Part shown: one piece after another, positions 51,913 to 61,030 of the stretch
How positions within the stretch are numbered: position 1 is the stretch's first letter
Layout of the letters: each line of letters begins with the position of its first letter
Origin: a virus
Length of the DNA stretch: 64,000 nucleotides
Reading direction: 5' to 3' (one strand)
Virus record (IMG/VR): IMGVR_UViG_3300020123_000219
Coordinates: 1-64,000 of that record
The notes under the pieces: model-generated
Database searches by the model: none
The model's input: only the letters and a program-made list of their open reading frames with translations
What the model was told of the DNA's origin: nothing
Made by a program: the position numbers and the translations under genes

Positions 51913-54603
51913 TCAGGTAGAGAGCATCTTGCGGATTTGTGCCTTCGCGCCTTCCCGCAGTTGCGGGTCGCCGCTGTTCTCCAGCGACTGGAGCCACGAC
52001 AGGTAACCCGCCCGGTGCTGCTCGCCTGCCTCATCAACCAGGGAGCGCCGCTCCGCTGGAATTACGGCAGAGGCCGCCTTCGCCACGACGGACCGGTTAG
52101 GCGCGTCAGCGGTGTCAGGCTGTGAGCCGAGGATGTCGACGCTGCGCCGCAGCGTGTCGATCTCGGCCTGCTGGTGTTGCAGCCGGGACTCGTAACCCTT
52201 GGTGAGTTCCGCGATCTGGCTGTCCTGCTCCTCGCGGGCCTTGCCCAGCTTCCTCAGCTGGCGCTCGACCCGGGCGAGCAGGACGGAAATGTCGCCGGTC
52301 TGGGCGACGTAATCACTAGAAGGGACATATGTAGCGGTGAACCCTGATTCGTTCACCTTGACGGACGACGGGGTCGCGGGCATAGACGGGATCGGGTCCA
52401 TCGGCGCCCATTCGGCGGGCGGCTTCTTAGACTTCTTCTTCTTGCCCTTCCCGATCCCGGTGGCCGGGCCGGCGTCCGCGCCCATCGGGCAGACGCCGTT
52501 CCAGCGGGCAGCGAAGTGGTTGTGGATGGTGCGGAGCTGCGCAGCTGCCTGCTGCGCATCAGCCGCGTGATCGTAGACCTGCCCTGCCGGGGTGCCGGCA
52601 GGGAACGGGTTGGAGTCGCCCTTGTTCCCGGGCGACGGGGACTCGTGGCCTGCGGTAAGCGGGCCGCGCCTGAAATCGTTCGCCATCGGGTGATACGACG
52701 GTACCGTGCCCGGCGATGTGTCCCCAGACGGCGCAGGAGCGTTCGCGTGCCCCGCCGAGATGTACGGGCGGTGGAACTGGCCCGGCATGATCTCGCCCGG
52801 GGACAGCCGCACCGACGGGTACATGTCGGTGAACGCCTTTCGCAGCCCAGCCATCGCGTCCGCGATCACCAGCGGGTCAGCCTTCGACAGCATCTCTGCA
52901 GCCTTCGCTGCGGCGAGCAGCCGCTCCCCGCCGTCAAGATCACCGGAGGCGACCGCTGACAGGGCGGCTTCCTTCAGCTCACCCGGGTCGCAGGCAACGC
53001 CCGGATGCGCCAGCGCCGGGTACGCCGCCTTCACTGCGACAGGGTCATACGCAGGGCACGTCGCGTCGTGCGCCCGCTGCGCCGAGTACGGGGCGTCGGT
53101 GGTGCGCTTGACCGCCTTGCCCCACGGCTGGTCCGGGTGGATGACATCCGGGCCGCAGTCCATCGACCCGCCGCCCCGGTGCGCCGGAACAGGCGACGCC
53201 TGGGGCACGCCCTGCACGCCCACCGTCGGCGTGCATTTCGCCAGCTCGGCCTGTAGCTGCTCGATCTGCTTCATGATCTCCGCAGCCCGGCCGCCCTTCC
53301 CAGAGTCATTGTCGTCATCGTCATCGTCGCCGCCGGGAGGCATCTTCTTGCCGTCCTTCGGCTTCTTGCCGAACGGCTTGGCCTGGTTACCGCCGAACGG
53401 CTTCGCGGCCTTCCCTGCGGTCTGCGGGGCCTCGTCGTCATCGAGGTCGTTGTCTTCGTACTCGTCGGCCGTTTCCTGCGAGGACCGCGAGTCCTTCACT
53501 GACTCAGGCGCGTAACCGAGGTACTTGACCGCCATCTCCTCAGCCAGGTTCCCGTCAGCGAGGGCCTTCGACACGGACCCCGTGTCGATCTCCACGTCGT
53601 CGACATCGAAGACCTTTCCCGTGTGATCGCCTTCCAGCGACGGAGGGAGCTTCTTGCCCGGCCACTTCCTGCGCGCGATAGCCGCGATCCGGGACCGCAC
53701 CGCGCCCGGGTTCTTCGCGTGATGCGCCAGCGACGCCGCGTCGGACACGTCGCCCCACGTCTCGATCGGGAAAGTCTTCCCCGGTCCTGCGAAGTCGCCG
53801 GAAGCTACATCGGAGCGGTCCTGCCCTGAGGAGTCCACCACCCTGCCCGACGCCGTCACCCGCTTCGCCACCTCGGCGTCAAGCACAGGCGCTGCGTACC
53901 GCATGTCCTCCGACTTGGCGACAGCCTCAGCCAGCGACGACTCCGCCAGCGCGTCAGCGAGCCGCTGCGCGACAGGGTCGGAATACAGGTGCCCGATCTG
54001 GCCGGCGTCGCGGCGCCGTGCCACCCGAGCCGCGATGTCGGCCGGACTCGGCGCCGTCACCGACTTCTCCAGCGCCAGCCGGGGGTCGCCGTGCATCTCC
54101 GCGACCCTGACCAGGTTCCCGGACGCATCGGACTTCACCAGGGTGAACGCGCAGTTCTTGTTCGCCGGCCGGTCCACCAGCGAGATCTCCGCGAGCTGAC
54201 CGCCCTTGATGATCCCGCCCCGCGCCTTACCCGAGATGTCCCGCTCGACCACAGGACGGGCGATCCCCACCGAGTAGGCACGCAGCACGCCCTTCTTCAC
54301 CAGGTTCTTCGCGTTCGAGTCCACGACCAGGCTCTTGACGAAAACACCGTCGTCGGTCAGGTCCACGCCCAGCGACGTGCCGACGGCCTTCGTCGGGTCA
54401 TGCGACTGGCGGACGTTCCCCCCGGTCTCGTGCCACTCCGGGACGGCTGTCTTCGCCCACATCGGGTCAACGATCTGCAGGTCCGAATCCACGCTGCCGT
54501 CAGTGGCCTTGCCGTAGACGACCAGGTCCCCGTCTTCGGTGGTGTCCCACTTCTCGATCGGGAAGGAGACGAAAGTCAGCTCGTCGGTCAGGGTCTGCGG
54601 CAT
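51913..54603 (-). CDS. Prohead protease fused to scaffold-like region (896 aa)
   Basis: ATG 54603 behind GGAGGCG. The N-terminal ~170 residues resemble HK97-type prohead proteases (FVSFPIEKWDTTEDGDLVVY; VPEWHETGGNVRQSHDPTKA with His; EISLVDRPANKNC with the conserved S-x-V). A long, charged, low-complexity middle follows, including an Asp run and Lys/Pro blocks, and coiled coils at the C-terminus (LLARVERQLRKLGKAREEQD) typical of scaffolds. It would guide capsid assembly and then cleave it. Confidence 0.8.
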   Translation of the reverse strand: MPQTLTDELTFVSFPIEKWDTTEDGDLVVYGKATDGSVDSDLQIVDPMWAKTAVPEWHETGGNVRQSHDPTKAVGTSLGVDLTDDGVFVKSLVVDSNAKNLVKKGVLRAYSVGIARPVVERDISGKARGGIIKGGQLAEISLVDRPANKNCAFTLVKSDASGNLVRVAEMHGDPRLALEKSVTAPSPADIAARVARRRDAGQIGHLYSDPVAQRLADALAESSLAEAVAKSEDMRYAAPVLDAEVAKRVTASGRVVDSSGQDRSDVASGDFAGPGKTFPIETWGDVSDAASLAHHAKNPGAVRSRIAAIARRKWPGKKLPPSLEGDHTGKVFDVDDVEIDTGSVSKALADGNLAEEMAVKYLGYAPESVKDSRSSQETADEYEDNDLDDDEAPQTAGKAAKPFGGNQAKPFGKKPKDGKKMPPGGDDDDDDNDSGKGGRAAEIMKQIEQLQAELAKCTPTVGVQGVPQASPVPAHRGGGSMDCGPDVIHPDQPWGKAVKRTTDAPYSAQRAHDATCPAYDPVAVKAAYPALAHPGVACDPGELKEAALSAVASGDLDGGERLLAAAKAAEMLSKADPLVIADAMAGLRKAFTDMYPSVRLSPGEIMPGQFHRPYISAGHANAPAPSGDTSPGTVPSYHPMANDFRRGPLTAGHESPSPGNKGDSNPFPAGTPAGQVYDHAADAQQAAAQLRTIHNHFAARWNGVCPMGADAGPATGIGKGKKKKSKKPPAEWAPMDPIPSMPATPSSVKVNESGFTATYVPSSDYVAQTGDISVLLARVERQLRKLGKAREEQDSQIAELTKGYESRLQHQQAEIDTLRRSVDILGSQPDTADAPNRSVVAKAASAVIPAERRSLVDEAGEQHRAGYLSWLQSLENSGDPQLREGAKAQIRKMLST

Positions 54604-54649
54604 TCGCCTCCGGTAGGAAACTTCATCGTCAAATTCTCGGGAAGGGCGC

Positions 54650-55204
54650 TCAGGTATCCCACGCAAGGCCCCAGGAAAGCAGCGGCACAGTTTCCCAGGG
54701 TGATTCAATCCCGTGCGACACGGCGAAATCACCGGCCACGTACACGCAATGGTCCCCGGTTACCGCGATATCGCAGCCGGGAACTATCTCTGCTTCCGGG
54801 CCGAGGAACCCGCTCGCTGCCAGCGCCACCACCTCAGCCGGGTCAGCCCATGCGGCGTTGCCGCCCGCAGCGACATGCAGCCGGACAGCGTCCTCGTCGG
54901 TCACCGGCACGCCTGCGGCGACAAGGCTGTTAGCGACCGCGACAGCCGCGCACGTTCCCAGGACATCGTTCATGCCGGTCAGCCAGCGGGAACCCGGAGC
55001 CAGCACGCCCGCAGCCCCGGCCTTGTGGCGGCGGCCATGATGTTTCGCTGCCGCCGCAGTGTGTTTCGACGCCGACCTTTTCGTGCCCGCGTGCTTGCGC
55101 TTGACTGTAACCCTGCTCCGTGCGCTGCCGCCCGGAAGGCCCAGGAGTTTCTTGGCCGCCTTGAACTGCGAGGGCGTCAGCGTGTTGATTCCGGCAGCGG
55201 CCAC
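54650..55204 (-). CDS. Possible cysteine-peptidase-like virion protein (184 aa)
   Basis: A basic N-terminal tail (~25-65) is followed by MNDVLGTCAAVAVANSLVAA (C85), LHVAAGG and GDHCVYVAGDFAVSHG (H152), which recalls C39/papain-like folds used by phages, but I cannot confirm the catalytic set. Located between protease/scaffold and small beta proteins. Confidence 0.6.
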   Translation of the reverse strand: MAAAGINTLTPSQFKAAKKLLGLPGGSARSRVTVKRKHAGTKRSASKHTAAAAKHHGRRHKAGAAGVLAPGSRWLTGMNDVLGTCAAVAVANSLVAAGVPVTDEDAVRLHVAAGGNAAWADPAEVVALAASGFLGPEAEIVPGCDIAVTGDHCVYVAGDFAVSHGIESPWETVPLLSWGLAWDT

Positions 55205-55213
55205 CGGGTCACC

Positions 55214-55519
55214 TCACTGGATCTGGATCTGACCCGGGGTGCGGACAGGTACCTCCGGGTTATCGGTGATCTTTACCCAGATCGTGTAGATCCCGGGCGT
55301 GAGGGCCACCACTCCGGACGGCCCGATGTTGCAGGCCGCGTAGTAGGTGTTCGCGACAGGGATGAACCACGTGCCCGTGTACCACGTTCCAGGGGCGACT
55401 GCGCCCGGCTCGAACGCGAACTGCACCACGTCACCGGTCGGGTTGTACGGCTGGTTCACCCCCGCAGCTGACACCGGGACGAACACGTACTCCGTTGACG
55501 AAGCCAGGTAGGTCAGCAT
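55214..55519 (-). CDS. Small beta-sandwich protein (101 aa)
   Basis: ATG 55519 overlaps the stop of the next upstream gene (TGATG). YLASSTEYVFVPVSAAGVNQ, GTWYTGTWFIPVANTYYAAC and TPGIYTIWVKITDNPEVPVR: an Ig-like fold. Likely a head-associated protein. Confidence 0.7.
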   Translation of the reverse strand: MLTYLASSTEYVFVPVSAAGVNQPYNPTGDVVQFAFEPGAVAPGTWYTGTWFIPVANTYYAACNIGPSGVVALTPGIYTIWVKITDNPEVPVRTPGQIQIQ

Positions 55520-55656
55520 CAGCGGCCCGGCGCCAGCGTGACCGGCTGCCCGGCCACCCAGCGCGGCAGCGGCGCCGCAAGGTCCCACCGTGCCAGCGGC
55601 TCCCCGAAAGCCCAGCGGGGCAGCGGCGGCCCCAGCTCGAACACGATCACGGCCAT
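55519..55656 (-). CDS. Tiny P-L-x-R-W repeat protein (45 aa)
   Basis: MAVIVFELGPPLPRWAFGEP then LARWDLAAPLPRWVAGQPVT: three PL-x-RW-type repeats. TGATG overlaps on both sides. Such mini-proteins are encoded next to Ig-like head genes in actinophages; role unknown. Confidence 0.65.
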   Translation of the reverse strand: MAVIVFELGPPLPRWAFGEPLARWDLAAPLPRWVAGQPVTLAPGR

Positions 55657-56486
55657 CAGGTCACCAGCGTCTCGGTCATCTTCCGGAAAGCGGCAGCGAA
55701 CACCGGGTTCCGCATAATCCTGAAATCACCGTCGCGGCACCCCGACAGCCAGACCAGGTCACCGCAAGGCTTCCCGTCCGCGATCCTGCGGGCAAAGAAA
55801 TCCTGGGTGTAATCAAGGAACGACATGTTGTCGCGCTCGCAGAGCCGGTCAAAGTCCGGGGTGAACTCGGCGAGCCCGAACGGCTTGCCGTGCTCGTCAG
55901 CAAACGCCGCAGCCCGGTCCAGCGACAGCCCCGTCGGGTAGAACGTCACCGCCACAGAATCGGCGTACTCATCACCCGGCCAGAACCGTTCCAGCGCATC
56001 AGTGGTAATGGCAGCGAAATTGGAGACGCAGAACGTGTGCGTGAACCCGTACTGGTGAATCACCGGGACGTAGATCTCGCACAGCACCCGGTACTGCTCC
56101 GCGTGCATCTTGTGATGCGCCTCAGGATGCAGCGTCACATCCACGACCAGCCCAGCCGCCTTGCACAAGCCAAGGAACAGCGCCAGCCTGCCCGGTACCC
56201 AGCCCGCGCCCGGACGGAACACCACCAGCGTCTTGCGGCCCGTGCCCCGGTCCGTCCACGAATCAGACTCCTGCAGCCGCTCCGGGATATCCGCCCCGTA
56301 ATCATGCTTGCGGGCATACAGCGGAGCCCCGGTGAACTCCACGAACTCCGCGATAGCCCCATCCATCGGCTGGCCAGGCTCGGGGATGATGAACGCGCCG
56401 GTCAGCGAACCCCGGCCGTCCGCCACCACGAGCGGCGCCGACGCGCTCGCCTCCCCGGCGGTCACGGTCGCGAGATACCTCGTCAA
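55656..56486 (-). CDS. Glycoside-hydrolase-like TIM-barrel protein (276 aa)
   Basis: IAEFVEFTGAPLYARKHDYG, DVTLHPEAHHKMHAEQYRVL, FWPGDEYADSVAVTFYPTGL and KPFGLAEFTPDFDRL: strands ending in acidic residues in the way of GH26/GH-A clan barrels (E after beta-7 in GLAEFTPD). Could digest host glycans or bind them. Catalytic assignment is tentative. Confidence 0.55.
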   Translation of the reverse strand: MTRYLATVTAGEASASAPLVVADGRGSLTGAFIIPEPGQPMDGAIAEFVEFTGAPLYARKHDYGADIPERLQESDSWTDRGTGRKTLVVFRPGAGWVPGRLALFLGLCKAAGLVVDVTLHPEAHHKMHAEQYRVLCEIYVPVIHQYGFTHTFCVSNFAAITTDALERFWPGDEYADSVAVTFYPTGLSLDRAAAFADEHGKPFGLAEFTPDFDRLCERDNMSFLDYTQDFFARRIADGKPCGDLVWLSGCRDGDFRIMRNPVFAAAFRKMTETLVT

Positions 56487-56773
56487 GCGGTCGCGGTGAA
56501 CACGGCCACGGTGCCGTTATCGGACGACTGCGCCCACGTGCGGCTGCCCGTGTCCGACACCGACACGGTGTCACCGGCCTGCGGCGTGTTCACCGTGAAA
56601 GGGGCACTGTCCTGCGCCACCGGGGTGCCGTCGGTGTTCGAGATCACCACCGTCGCAGTGAACGTCTGGGGGACGACGCCGGGAGTGTCCGGAGTGTAGT
56701 CAGCGGTCAGGGTGATCATCTGGCCCGGCGTGTACGACGCCTGGTCGAACGTGATCGAGTTGACGACGGCCAT
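56483..56773 (-). CDS. Ig-like virion protein (96 aa), first gene of the late operon
   Basis: ATG 56773 behind GGAAGG. ITFDQASYTPGQMITLTADY, TATVVISNTDGTPVAQDSAP and SDNGTVAVFTATA: a bacterial Ig-like domain. First gene after the late promoter and attenuator. Confidence 0.75.
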   Translation of the reverse strand: MAVVNSITFDQASYTPGQMITLTADYTPDTPGVVPQTFTATVVISNTDGTPVAQDSAPFTVNTPQAGDTVSVSDTGSRTWAQSSDNGTVAVFTATA

Positions 56774-56800
56774 CAGCGAGCCTTCCGGTGAACGGGCATC

Positions 56801-56886
56801 AAAAAAGCCCAGACATCGGCCTGGGCTCACCTGGAGACAGATCTGTCCCGCTGGCTGAATTATAGACACAAATTGAACGCCGTCAA
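56801..56886 (-). promoter_or_regulatory. Late promoter, palindromic operator and attenuator-type terminator
   Basis: Reading leftward: TTGACG (56886-56881), 16-nt spacer, TATAAT (56864-56859), perfect 12-bp palindrome GACAGATCTGTC (56847-56836), then a 7-bp terminator stem AGCCCAG/CTGGGCT (56827-56806) with TTTTTT (56806-56801), then the ribosome site of the 56773 gene. An intrinsic terminator starting ~25 nt after the start point would stop most transcripts unless a phage factor antiterminates, as at lambda pR'. Confidence 0.75.
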
Positions 56887-56929
56887 CACCCGCCGCATAA
56901 CGAGGCGCATCCCGGGGAAGAACAACCAT

Positions 56930-57085
56930 ATGCCGGCCTCCCGCATGCTGCTCCTCGTAGCCGCCGCATGCTTCCTTATCGCGGCGCTCGCAGCAGCGGT
57001 CGCCGGGTTCCCGCTAGGCCCCCCGCTCGCGTGGATCGCGGGCGGGCTCAGCGCGTGGGCGCTCAGCGGCGTAGTGACCCCGTGA
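56930..57085 (+). CDS. Small membrane protein (51 aa), divergent from the late operon
   Basis: ATG 56930 behind GGGGAAGAAC. MPASRMLLLVAAACFLIAAL and PLAWIAGGLSAWALSGVV: two hydrophobic helices. Comparable short membrane proteins are common in actinophages. Followed by a strong hairpin. Confidence 0.65.
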   Translation: MPASRMLLLVAAACFLIAALAAAVAGFPLGPPLAWIAGGLSAWALSGVVTP

Positions 57086-57090
57086 AAAGC

Positions 57091-57122
57091 AGGACCCCCC
57101 GGGCTGCAGCCCGGGGGGTCCT
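57091..57122. terminator. 15-bp GC-rich palindromic hairpin
   Basis: AGGACCCCCCGGGCT (57091-57105) pairs with 57108-57122. It follows the + membrane gene and also lies ~20 nt downstream of the leftward promoter at 57161-57189, so it can act on both strands. No T-run. Confidence 0.7.
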
Positions 57123-57160
57123 CAACGCCCACGAAGGCCGTCAGATAATCACCGCCACCT

Positions 57161-57189
57161 ATCTTAGGTGACTAATGTGCCTTTGTCAA
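57161..57189 (-). promoter_or_regulatory. Leftward sigma70-type promoter with overlapping operator
   Basis: TTGACA (57189-57184), 17-nt spacer, TAAGAT (57166-57161). An inverted repeat CACCTA-TCT-TAGGTG (57156-57170) covers the -10. The -35 lies in the last codons of 57186-57440. No leftward gene follows before the 57091 hairpin, so the product could be a short RNA or read through toward the late operon. Confidence 0.6.
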
Positions 57190-57440
57190 GGCCACGAGAT
57201 ATCCCGCCACGATTTCGGCTTCCCAGCCGGGCTCAGCAGCCGCTTCAGCAGTACTTCGCCCGGTGGGACATCCATTCGCCACGTGCGCAGCGGAACTCGC
57301 TTCCCTTTCTTCCCGACCGGCCATTTCTTGCCCATGAACTTCATCGGCCTGCGGCACAGCGGGCACGCCGGGGTGCCGTGCGACTTCGCCACGAAATCGC
57401 ACGGCACGCACCAGAACTTGTACCGCTCGCTAGCTCGCAT
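57186..57440 (-). CDS. Zinc-ribbon protein (84 aa)
   Basis: MRASERYKFWCVPCDFVAKS, HGTPACPLCRRPMKFMGKKW: C-x2-C...C-x2-C ribbon with a basic tail. Starts 12 nt after the Ro60 stop in the same direction, hence possibly cotranscribed. Function unknown; RNA binding is conceivable. Confidence 0.75.
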   Translation of the reverse strand: MRASERYKFWCVPCDFVAKSHGTPACPLCRRPMKFMGKKWPVGKKGKRVPLRTWRMDVPPGEVLLKRLLSPAGKPKSWRDISWP

Positions 57441-57452
57441 CGCGCTGCCCCC

Positions 57453-59273
57453 TTAGCCTGCGGTCCCCCACGGCCCGTCGGACATGTAGTCCTCCGGAAC
57501 CCCGTGCTCGGTGAAAGCCTTGCAGGTAGCCGGGCGGACCTCGGCCATGCGTGCCTTCAGCCGATCCGTCCCGCTCTCGGCGAGCCACGGCCACGGCACG
57601 GTCTTGCCCGCCTGCAGCGCCGTGATCAGCCGGAACGCCGCGTCAGTCAGGCCGCCGAACGTGTGCCGGTTCGACCCGCCCGACGGCAGCGCCCCGGTCT
57701 TGTACCCGGCGAAGTTCCACATGTACACCGGGACGGTCTTCGGGATCAGGTCATCGATCAGGGTCTCGCTCATGCTGTTCGCCGCGATGCTGCGCCCGTA
57801 CTGGATGCAGTTCGACGGAAGCCACCCCGGCCGGGTCTGCTCGTCAGTCAGGATCACGACCTCCGTGTGGTACGGCTTCAGGTGATCCCGCACCGCCGCC
57901 GGGATATCAGTCCCGCCCGGAGCGGGCTTCACGGAGAACTTCTCCATGATCTTCAGCACCGACTCGCCCTTCCCGAACGGCACCGGCTTCGAATGCGCCC
58001 AGAACTCCGCCAGGTCCGCGTTATCCGCCCGCACCGCCAGCGCGGCGCCGAACAGCGCAGCAGCATCCGCCCAGTCCATGTCCGAATGCTCCGTCATCTT
58101 GTACGCCCACATCGACGGGGACCGGTCCACCAGGACCAGCGGGCGCCGCAGCGGAGTCACGTTCGCCAGCGACGCGTCCAGCGCCTTCTCCAGCGGCCAC
58201 GCCCACCGCAGCGACGGCGCGTTCCTGTACGCAAGCCAGAACGCGAACGGGAACTCACCCGACCGCGCGACCGCCTCCGGGTCGGCCAGACGGGCAGCCA
58301 CCTTCGCGGCGACCGCGTCCGAGATCCCGGCCCGGTCGAAGTTCGCGAGGTTCCGCCGCAGTGCCATGTACGGCATCGACGGGATCGCCGCCTCCCACTT
58401 CCCGGCAGTCATCTCGCCATGCGACGCGGCCCGCTCCCACGTCATCCCCGCCTTCTTAGCCGACTCAGCCGTGATCTTCGACGGATCGCGCATCAGCCGC
58501 TTGTTCTGCCGCAGAACCCGCAGCACTGCCGGGATCTCCGCGTCCTGGTCGTGGCGCCGCGCGATCAGGTACTTCCACAGCACCGCACGGTACGCCGGGT
58601 CGCCCTCGCAGCCCGGAGCGTGATGCCCCAGCGCGCCGCACAGGTAGCACGTGCCGCGAGACGTGGCGTTGTACCGCGCGTTGACGATCTCGATCACGTC
58701 ACCGAACCGGACCGCAGCCGACGGAGTATCGTACTTCGCGACCGCGTACTCCGTGTACAGGCGCGGCAGCGCATCGGCGATGCCGCGCTTCAGGCCCTTC
58801 GGCATGGTGTTCCGGCCGTACTTGGTGATCCAGTACGCGATCAGCTCGCCTGGCTCGTCACCGCGCTGCAGGACAGCGTCGGTCACCTTCCGGACCGTCC
58901 ACTCCTGAGGGTCGGCGCGGTAACGTGCCTCTTCCTTGCGTGCCTGCGCGAACTCGGCTGCGCCGTACACCGGCCCGAGCCGCAGGTTCCCGCCATCGCG
59001 TGCCCGCAGGTAGTTCAGCAGGCCACCGGCCCAGTCAGGGTCCGTGCTGGCGTTCGCGCGCACCAGCTCCGTCCACCGGGCCACCCGGGCGTCCTTGCCC
59101 TCGTGCAGGGTCTTTTCGTCCGGCATGTAGCACGACGCCAGCACGTACAGCTCTGACTTCAGGTCCCGCAGGTAGCCCTGCGCGCCCAGTGCGGTCTTCG
59201 CGTCCGGCGCAGCCTCGGAGAAGACCGGCGACGACGGCAGGGTCGTGACCCTGCCCCTGTTGTACCGCGACAT
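57453..59273 (-). CDS. rsr: Ro60 / Rsr (TROVE + vWA) RNA-binding protein with a zinc-knuckle insertion
   Basis: 606 aa. N-terminal TROVE helical ring (ELYVLASCYMPDEKTLHEGK; WAGGLLNYLRARDGGNLRLG; ELIAYWITKYGRNTMPKGLK; GMTWERAASHGE), then a C-terminal von Willebrand A domain whose MIDAS is D383-R-S-P-S (VLVDRSPSMW), with VVILTDEQTRPGW. Residues 209-222 form C-x2-C-x4-H-x4-C, a retroviral-type zinc knuckle inside TROVE. Ro proteins bind Y RNAs and misfolded RNAs and tether exonucleases; some mycobacteriophages carry them. ATG 59273 lies behind GAGGAGG. A candidate Y RNA lies directly upstream. Confidence 0.93.
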   Translation of the reverse strand: MSRYNRGRVTTLPSSPVFSEAAPDAKTALGAQGYLRDLKSELYVLASCYMPDEKTLHEGKDARVARWTELVRANASTDPDWAGGLLNYLRARDGGNLRLGPVYGAAEFAQARKEEARYRADPQEWTVRKVTDAVLQRGDEPGELIAYWITKYGRNTMPKGLKRGIADALPRLYTEYAVAKYDTPSAAVRFGDVIEIVNARYNATSRGTCYLCGALGHHAPGCEGDPAYRAVLWKYLIARRHDQDAEIPAVLRVLRQNKRLMRDPSKITAESAKKAGMTWERAASHGEMTAGKWEAAIPSMPYMALRRNLANFDRAGISDAVAAKVAARLADPEAVARSGEFPFAFWLAYRNAPSLRWAWPLEKALDASLANVTPLRRPLVLVDRSPSMWAYKMTEHSDMDWADAAALFGAALAVRADNADLAEFWAHSKPVPFGKGESVLKIMEKFSVKPAPGGTDIPAAVRDHLKPYHTEVVILTDEQTRPGWLPSNCIQYGRSIAANSMSETLIDDLIPKTVPVYMWNFAGYKTGALPSGGSNRHTFGGLTDAAFRLITALQAGKTVPWPWLAESGTDRLKARMAEVRPATCKAFTEHGVPEDYMSDGPWGTAG

Positions 59274-59274
59274 G

Positions 59275-59307
59275 AAAAAGTCCTCCTCGCGTCAGCGGCG
59301 GGAGGAC
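59275..59307 (-). promoter_or_regulatory. Hairpin plus T-run masking the Ro60 ribosome site
   Basis: - strand GTCCTCC (59307-59301) pairs with GGAGGAC (59286-59280), which contains the Shine-Dalgarno of the Ro gene. Five T follow (59279-59275), then CATG with the start. It can act as terminator of the upstream RNA and as a translational lock. Confidence 0.65.
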
Positions 59308-59312
59308 GTGCA

Positions 59313-59481
59313 TCAGGTGACCGCGCCCGACAAGAAATGCCGGAAGACATATCAAGGACGGGACTCGAACCCGCGACCTCTACCTGCGTAGGGTAGCGCT
59401 CTTCCAACTGAGCTACCAGCACCGAATGGTGTGCTGTTATTGAAGGAACTCCCGGCGGGCACCCCGGGCGCGGTCATCTGA
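59313..59481 (-). ncRNA. Candidate bacterial Y RNA with tRNA-like module
   Basis: Outer helix: TGACCGCGCCCG (59476-59465) pairs perfectly with CGGGCGCGGTCA (59329-59318), extended beyond an A-C mismatch by TCAG/CTGA. A second helix of 7 bp (59456-59450 with 59345-59339) follows. Inside lies a tRNA-like core at 59422-59350: D arm (GCTC/GAGC), anticodon arm (CTACC/GGTAG, loop CTACGCA), 5-nt variable loop and T arm with TTCGAGT. The acceptor stem has three central mismatches and there is no CCA, so it is not a normal tRNA. This two-part architecture next to a Ro60 gene is that of YrlA-type Y RNAs. Not predicted by any program here; folded by eye. Confidence 0.75.
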
Positions 59482-59629
59482 AGTTATGTCCCCTCACCGA
59501 CAACAATCGGGAAGCGGCTGTGGTTTCCACTGCGAAGGTGAGAAGTAACCGCTGCCCAGCACCCCGGTGACGGGGTAGAACGAAAACTACCCTACATTGG
59601 GGAGTGCCGTTATGCAAGCCTTTTTCGGG
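59482..59629. other. Non-coding, structured stretch upstream of the Y RNA
   Basis: No convincing ORF. Contains a 6-bp hairpin with a GTGA tetraloop (ACCCCG/CGGGGT, 59561-59576) overlapping a second 6-bp hairpin (GGGTAG/CTACCC, 59573-59592). Probably holds the promoter of the Y RNA unit on the - strand, but no clear -35/-10 pair is seen. Confidence 0.4.
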
Positions 59630-60631: not shown

Positions 60632-61030
60632 TCAGATCGTCGCGTGCTTGAATACCTTGGCGGCATCCTGGACACCGGTCTGCTCACGCAGCCTGTCCAG
60701 CTCCTCCTGCACCGGGGTCTGCCTCCGGTCGAACTCGCCGTTCCTCACCCCTGCGAGGAACGCATCCCACTCGGCAGCAGTGAACTCCAGCACCGGGCCG
60801 TCAGGGTTCTTCGAATCCCTCACGAGCACCTCGGTTCCCTCTTTCACAGGATGGTAGGACTCGGGGACGGCCGACGCCTCGACGCAGCCGCTCCGCTCGC
60901 TGAAGCTGGACTTGCCCCACCCGACTTCCACGCAGCCGCCGCCGTTCCCGCCGCTGAAGCTCGCCTTGTGCCACGAGACCTCAACGCAGGACTGGCTGGC
61001 GAACGAATATGACGACTTGAACCAGGTCAT
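60632..61030 (-). CDS. DUF397-type protein with three tandem N-terminal repeats (132 aa)
   Basis: ATG 61030 behind AAAGGAAAC. WFKSSYSFASQSCVEVSWHK, WHKASFSGGNGGGCVEV and WGKSSFSERSGCVEASAV are three copies of the W-x-K-S-S-x-S...C-V-E element, followed by one full DUF397 body (VLVRDSKNPDGPVLEFTAAE, WDAFLAGVRNGEF). DUF397 proteins are nearly confined to Actinobacteria and often pair with XRE regulators. A triple repeat is unusual. Confidence 0.85.
   Translation of the reverse strand: MTWFKSSYSFASQSCVEVSWHKASFSGGNGGGCVEVGWGKSSFSERSGCVEASAVPESYHPVKEGTEVLVRDSKNPDGPVLEFTAAEWDAFLAGVRNGEFDRRQTPVQEELDRLREQTGVQDAAKVFKHATI

Follow-up and report, generated by a model that had tools for sequence, protein, structure and literature searches.

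The stretch 57190-56774 of a virus genome may form a conditional, tandem attenuated leader, built as promoter P1, terminator T1, promoter P2 and terminator T2, for the virion operon that follows it (56773-25210), a reading to which we give a probability of roughly 0.4. The window, that is, the whole stretch of 64,000 bases that was analysed, has a G+C content of about 67% and is the first part of a virus record of 88,198 bases. According to the proposed mechanism, a host-type RNA polymerase would initiate at P2 (and P1) and would stop by default at T2 (and T1), yielding short RNAs (about 52 and 70 nt, respectively). At a later stage of infection, a change encoded or induced by the phage would permit the passage of T2 and subsequently of a third terminator, T3, leading to the expression of the capsid and tail genes. 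From the sequence we infer that both promoters are active and that transcription ends at the hairpins, and likewise that passage beyond them is processive and under control instead of a constant leakage; the regulatory claim as such is plausible. The order and spacing of the elements, their tandem repetition, the lone promoter region, T3 and the fold z-score of the short P2 RNA were counted in its favor.

The unit nearest to the operon agrees to the letter with the original prediction, which had named a TTGACG-16-TATAAT promoter, a palindrome and a hairpin with six T at 56886-56801; all of them lie on the minus strand (Table 1). The hairpin of T2, GAGCCCAGGC-CGAT-GTCTGGGCTT, occupies 56828-56805 with a dG of -16.3 kcal/mol, and the six T cover 56806-56801. 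Between this T tract and the ATG at 56773 there are just 27 nt, which include a GGAAGG ribosome site. With the start set about 7 bases past the -10 element, a P2 transcript ended at T2 is predicted to be about 52 nt long and to consist of two hairpins, with a fold z of -2.8. The palindrome GACAGATCTGTC was previously proposed to bind the read-through factor or a repressor. This role was not borne out, as no further copy was found in the contig at 0-1 mismatch and the palindrome was rejected as a repeated operator; in the RNA it makes the stem of a 5'-terminal hairpin, GGGACA-GAUC-UGUCUC. By itself the palindrome is weak evidence, considering that the window contains 25 perfect 12-bp palindromes and the chance of one per 50 bp is about 2%. 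Scans of the collection by the palindrome gave 0 and 1 match, and the single match (in L043) was judged a chance event, being A+T-rich with no -35 element and no terminator after it. Leader-peptide attenuation was also rejected, for no convincing start with a ribosome site was found ahead of T2. The GTG at 56830 is in frame with the gene at 56773 and has no ribosome site, and the start of the homologue is the equivalent of the ATG at 56773. Likewise, no likely coding frame with a ribosome site was found inside the 52-nt RNA.

A second unit, P1-T1, which was not part of the original prediction, was located upstream, so that a description as promoter-terminator units in tandem fits the locus better than a single late promoter plus operator. 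P1 and the T1 hairpin are separated by 39 bases, giving a predicted T1-ended transcript of about 70 nt; the hairpin is followed by TGCTTTT (TGCTTTTC). An inverted repeat, CACCTAAGATAGGTG, is centred on the -10 element of P1 as a possible operator; no second copy was found in the contig, and it was rejected as a repeated operator. Between P2 and T1, the plus strand carries a possible ORF for a 51-aa single-pass membrane peptide (56930-57085) with a weak coding score.

Table 1. Features of the leader, the genes around it and the virion operon (positions in the window)
Feature	Position	Strand	Remarks
tRNA-like RNA	59485-59310, core 59422-59350	minus	Rfam tRNA 45.6 bits; fold z -4.3
Ro60/TROVE-like protein	59273-57453	minus	32-41% identical to 'Ro-like RNA binding proteins' of Streptomyces, Gordonia and Arthrobacter phages
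Orphan basic protein, 84 aa	57440-57186	minus	pI 10.6, CxxC-CxxC; directly upstream of P1; candidate factor
P1, promoter TTGACA-17-TAAGAT	57189-57161	minus	10/12; located where gene 57440-57186 ends
Inverted repeat, possible operator	57170-57156	minus	Centred on the P1 -10
T1, 13-bp perfect G+C hairpin	57121-57092 (element 57121-57084)	minus	dG -32.2
P2, sigma70-type promoter TTGACG-16-TATAAT	56886-56859	minus	11/12 consensus positions
Perfect 12-bp palindrome	56847-56836	minus	About +6 to +17 of the P2 transcript
T2, putative intrinsic terminator	56828-56801	minus	10-bp stem, 4-nt loop, T6; hairpin + T tract
First gene past T2, 96 aa	56773-56483	minus	Two relatives have homologues (64% and 59% identical)
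Virion operon, about 31.5 kb	56773-25210	minus	Protease-like, head, neck-like, tape-measure candidate, tail and fibre genes
Head-protease-like protein	54603-51913	minus	
Major head protein	51894-50008	minus	
Neck-like protein	39273-38779	minus	
T3, putative intrinsic terminator inside the operon	38763-38734 (hairpin 38763-38739)	minus	11-bp stem, T6; the GTG of the 950-aa gene follows after 21 nt
Tape-measure candidate, 950 aa, GTG start	38712-35860	minus	By size and place; no family match
Long perfect hairpin at operon end	25177-25131	minus	Between convergent genes; probable end terminator, no T tract

The P1-T1-P2-T2 arrangement is non-random. With a unit defined as a promoter of at least 10/12 plus a hairpin-T element, the real contig held 2 units and none occurred in 150 simulated contigs of 88 kb with the same trinucleotide composition; for promoters scoring 11/12 or higher at a spacing of 16-18 nt, the expectation was 0.007 per simulated contig. 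Moreover, of 2000 dinucleotide-shuffled versions of the 427-bp intergenic region, 7 contained a promoter of at least 10/12, 12 a terminator and 0 a unit.

The original prediction also held that an operon of about 30 kb would be silent unless read-through occurred. The part that stood is the obstacle itself. From 56858 to 25210 on the minus strand, a consensus scan detected no other promoter-like site of at least 9/12, and with only 27 nt left before the ATG the polymerase must cross T2. Many actinobacterial promoters have no recognisable -35 element, so a promoter of this kind could be missed by such a scan. Inside the operon, which also contains glycosyltransferase genes, T3 (likewise absent from the original prediction) confronts the polymerase once more, and no promoter was found between T3 and the 950-aa gene. 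With T2 and then T3 in the path, transcription of the operon requires some read-through, by antitermination or by leakage, unless it starts downstream at a different kind of promoter. This last proviso is the core of a reading in which T1 and T2 do no more than end the transcripts of the accessory block, and the operon is served by a promoter of a different kind, located within 56801-56773 or in the first genes. T1 does stand after the Ro60 operon, and promoters lacking a -35 element may escape the scan; however, the distance from T2 to the ATG is short, and P2 lies between T1 and T2, making the P2 transcript the natural substrate of T2. We regard such insulation as improbable.

Leakage in place of regulation is the essence of a further explanation, in which P2 is the operon promoter, T2 is weak or leaky and merely sets the level or protects the 5' end of the mRNA, T3 lowers tape-measure expression, and no regulated factor exists. 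It draws on the modest stability of T2, on the position of T3 before a gene whose product is probably needed in few copies, and on the refolding of the read-through leader, which by direct energy evaluation reaches -39.1 kcal/mol, compared with -36.8 kcal/mol if the terminator hairpin is retained. A precedent is also at hand in the Cluster A mycobacteriophages, in which abundant RNA at P-left is followed by a drop of more than 90% with no known factor (PMC5712189). Nevertheless, a near-perfect promoter and a T6 terminator would be a wasteful way merely to cut output, and the tandem repetition is left unexplained, so that this explanation seems unlikely.

The claim that the unit stands before the first late gene did not hold, since the portal gene (contig 67040-65163, same strand) and a Nudix gene lie upstream of P1 and P2. 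With the portal gene upstream, late transcription may come from the portal side, and the late promoter may be one other than P2. G013, a relative, has the portal gene, the Nudix gene and the homologue of gene 56773-56483 packed in this order, and neither a promoter nor a terminator on their strand was found there; in G010, the homologue comes straight after the terminase gene plus a small frame, and no promoter or terminator was found before it. Since both relatives lack the units and have a packed operon, the promoter-terminator scheme is not the general late switch of the lineage; their lack of the units was also counted against the leader reading. Compared with G013, the present contig has an extra block of about 6 kb between the Nudix gene and 56773, comprising LysM, NlpC/P60, DUF397, an HNH-like frame, the tRNA-like RNA, Ro60/TROVE, the CxxC protein and P1-T1-P2-T2. 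The HNH-like label is only a reading of the frame, with no family match. The two units may have arrived with this accessory block, which is peculiar to the present phage.

This setting bears on the possibility that the accessory block brought in two genes for small RNAs, P1-T1 and P2-T2, whose stable products (about 70 and 52 nt) have functions of their own, the operon being transcribed mainly from the portal side past T1 and T2 by leakage or antitermination. Each unit is complete with promoter, structured RNA and terminator, the 52-nt RNA lacks a likely coding frame with a ribosome site, and the units stand at the edge of the insertion of about 6 kb relative to G013. In addition, near-consensus promoters in this genome drive stable RNAs: apart from P2, the contig has a single 11/12 promoter (72517-72489), at which part of a tRNA array begins, and this brings the small-RNA reading close behind the attenuated-leader reading. 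The tRNA-like RNA of the same block, which lies 77 bases before the Ro60/TROVE gene, is a candidate bacterial-type Y RNA (YrlA-like), having poor acceptor pairing, no ARAGORN call and a long outer stem that encloses the core. On the other side, T2 lies right against the ribosome site that serves a virion gene, so the phage would have placed a strong terminator in its own capsid operon with no gain, and no homologue was found for either the ~52-nt or the ~70-nt RNA. On balance we consider this possibility, the chief alternative to the leader, doubtful. If it were correct, phage small RNAs would be documented beside Ro60 and a Y-RNA-like RNA.

Further relatives provide some context for the attenuated leader. 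In G008 and G010, strong hairpin-T terminators lie past the final virion genes that could be recognised, where they would be expected to stand if terminators of this type work in these phages, and no terminator was found ahead of the tape-measure position, the equivalent of T3. In G001, a noncoding stretch of about 200 bases (L003 1663-1861) contains the inverted repeat ACTAGTTTTACTAGT and a hairpin-T element, the latter 20 nt before the homologue of gene 55214, which leads the portal block, and downstream of a Ro60 gene. The element has no recognisable -35 promoter; the stretch is possibly a non-homologous analogue of the leader, and its position before the portal block was counted in support. 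The leader itself was absent from related viral contigs, in which only chance matches of 13-21 bases were found.

The proposed lambda Q/pR' principle was sustained in outline only. Like lambda pR'-tR', the locus has a strong sigma70-type promoter (11/12), a short default transcript predicted to end at an intrinsic terminator ahead of the gene, and a long virion operon behind. Unlike lambda, it has portal and Nudix genes upstream and two units in tandem. No match to the Q family (PF06530, PF03589) was found at E<=1 in the 88-kb record, which is possibly incomplete, and in the first 30 bases past the -10 of P2 the best candidate for a -10-like pause element scored 2/6, short of the 4/6 sought. 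In the Q-bearing phage YA3 the terminator is 224 nt past the promoter (PMC7326022), whereas here it is at about +52. With no Q family protein, no pause element and virion genes upstream, the locus resembles lambda pR'-tR' and is not a member of the lambda Q class. A non-homologous replacement of Q acquired with the accessory block is conceivable; the gene of the CxxC protein is placed as Q is, upstream of pR'. This protein would load at P1 or P2 and carry the polymerase past T2 and T3 by processive antitermination; we regard this as very improbable.

Serial terminators in long operons are known from pLS20, with 23 internal terminators (PMC8955417), and from Tn916, both of which employ processive antitermination (PMC8955417, PMC11658703), and these precedents were counted for the leader reading. 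The operon studied here may resemble the conAn system of pLS20-type plasmids and the canT system of Tn916 as a long mobile-element operon with serial internal intrinsic terminators, here the putative T2 and T3 in the path and T1 just upstream. Those systems have a dedicated antitermination RNA or protein, whereas none was recognised here: the NusG family (PF02357) had no match in the 88-kb record, and Rfam at gathering score had none besides the one tRNA-like RNA, with only sub-threshold matches at the leader. PHROGs and Pfam scans found no known antiterminator family, which was counted against the leader reading, as was Ter1 of pIP501, a terminator predicted within a long operon and inactive in vivo (PMC8955417). 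The P-left regions of the Cluster A mycobacteriophages L5 and D29 are similar in having an actinophage promoter and an abundant noncoding leader RNA before a long operon with lower downstream levels (PMC5712189). They differ in that P-left is an early promoter, its RNA measures about 500 nt and a canonical stem-loop terminator is lacking, in contrast to the explicit hairpin-T and the structural operon here. The literature searched contained no description of a late-gene antitermination switch in actinobacteriophages. If the stop at T2 and its late bypass were real, the 417-bp stretch would offer a compact reporter for the factor hunt, and a lambda-like logic would have arisen independently via an inserted cassette.

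DUF397 is an actinobacterial domain, and its threefold occurrence in one protein (60632-61030, minus strand) suggests that the host is probably an actinobacterium. The virus is uncultured and far from isolated phages: among 50,697 phage records compared, the best relatives of the major head protein are 23-28% identical. In known phages, megablast found no homologous DNA for 53000-59500, and a homologous-DNA search with 56400-57200 returned chance matches only; cultured genomes queried via the major head protein gave no prophage relatives. In the relatives L009, L010 and L011, the Ro60 gene likewise comes after tRNA genes. A large tRNA array occupies L007 and L008 (contig 64001-88198, minus strand), with at least 33 tRNA matches and small genes interleaved.
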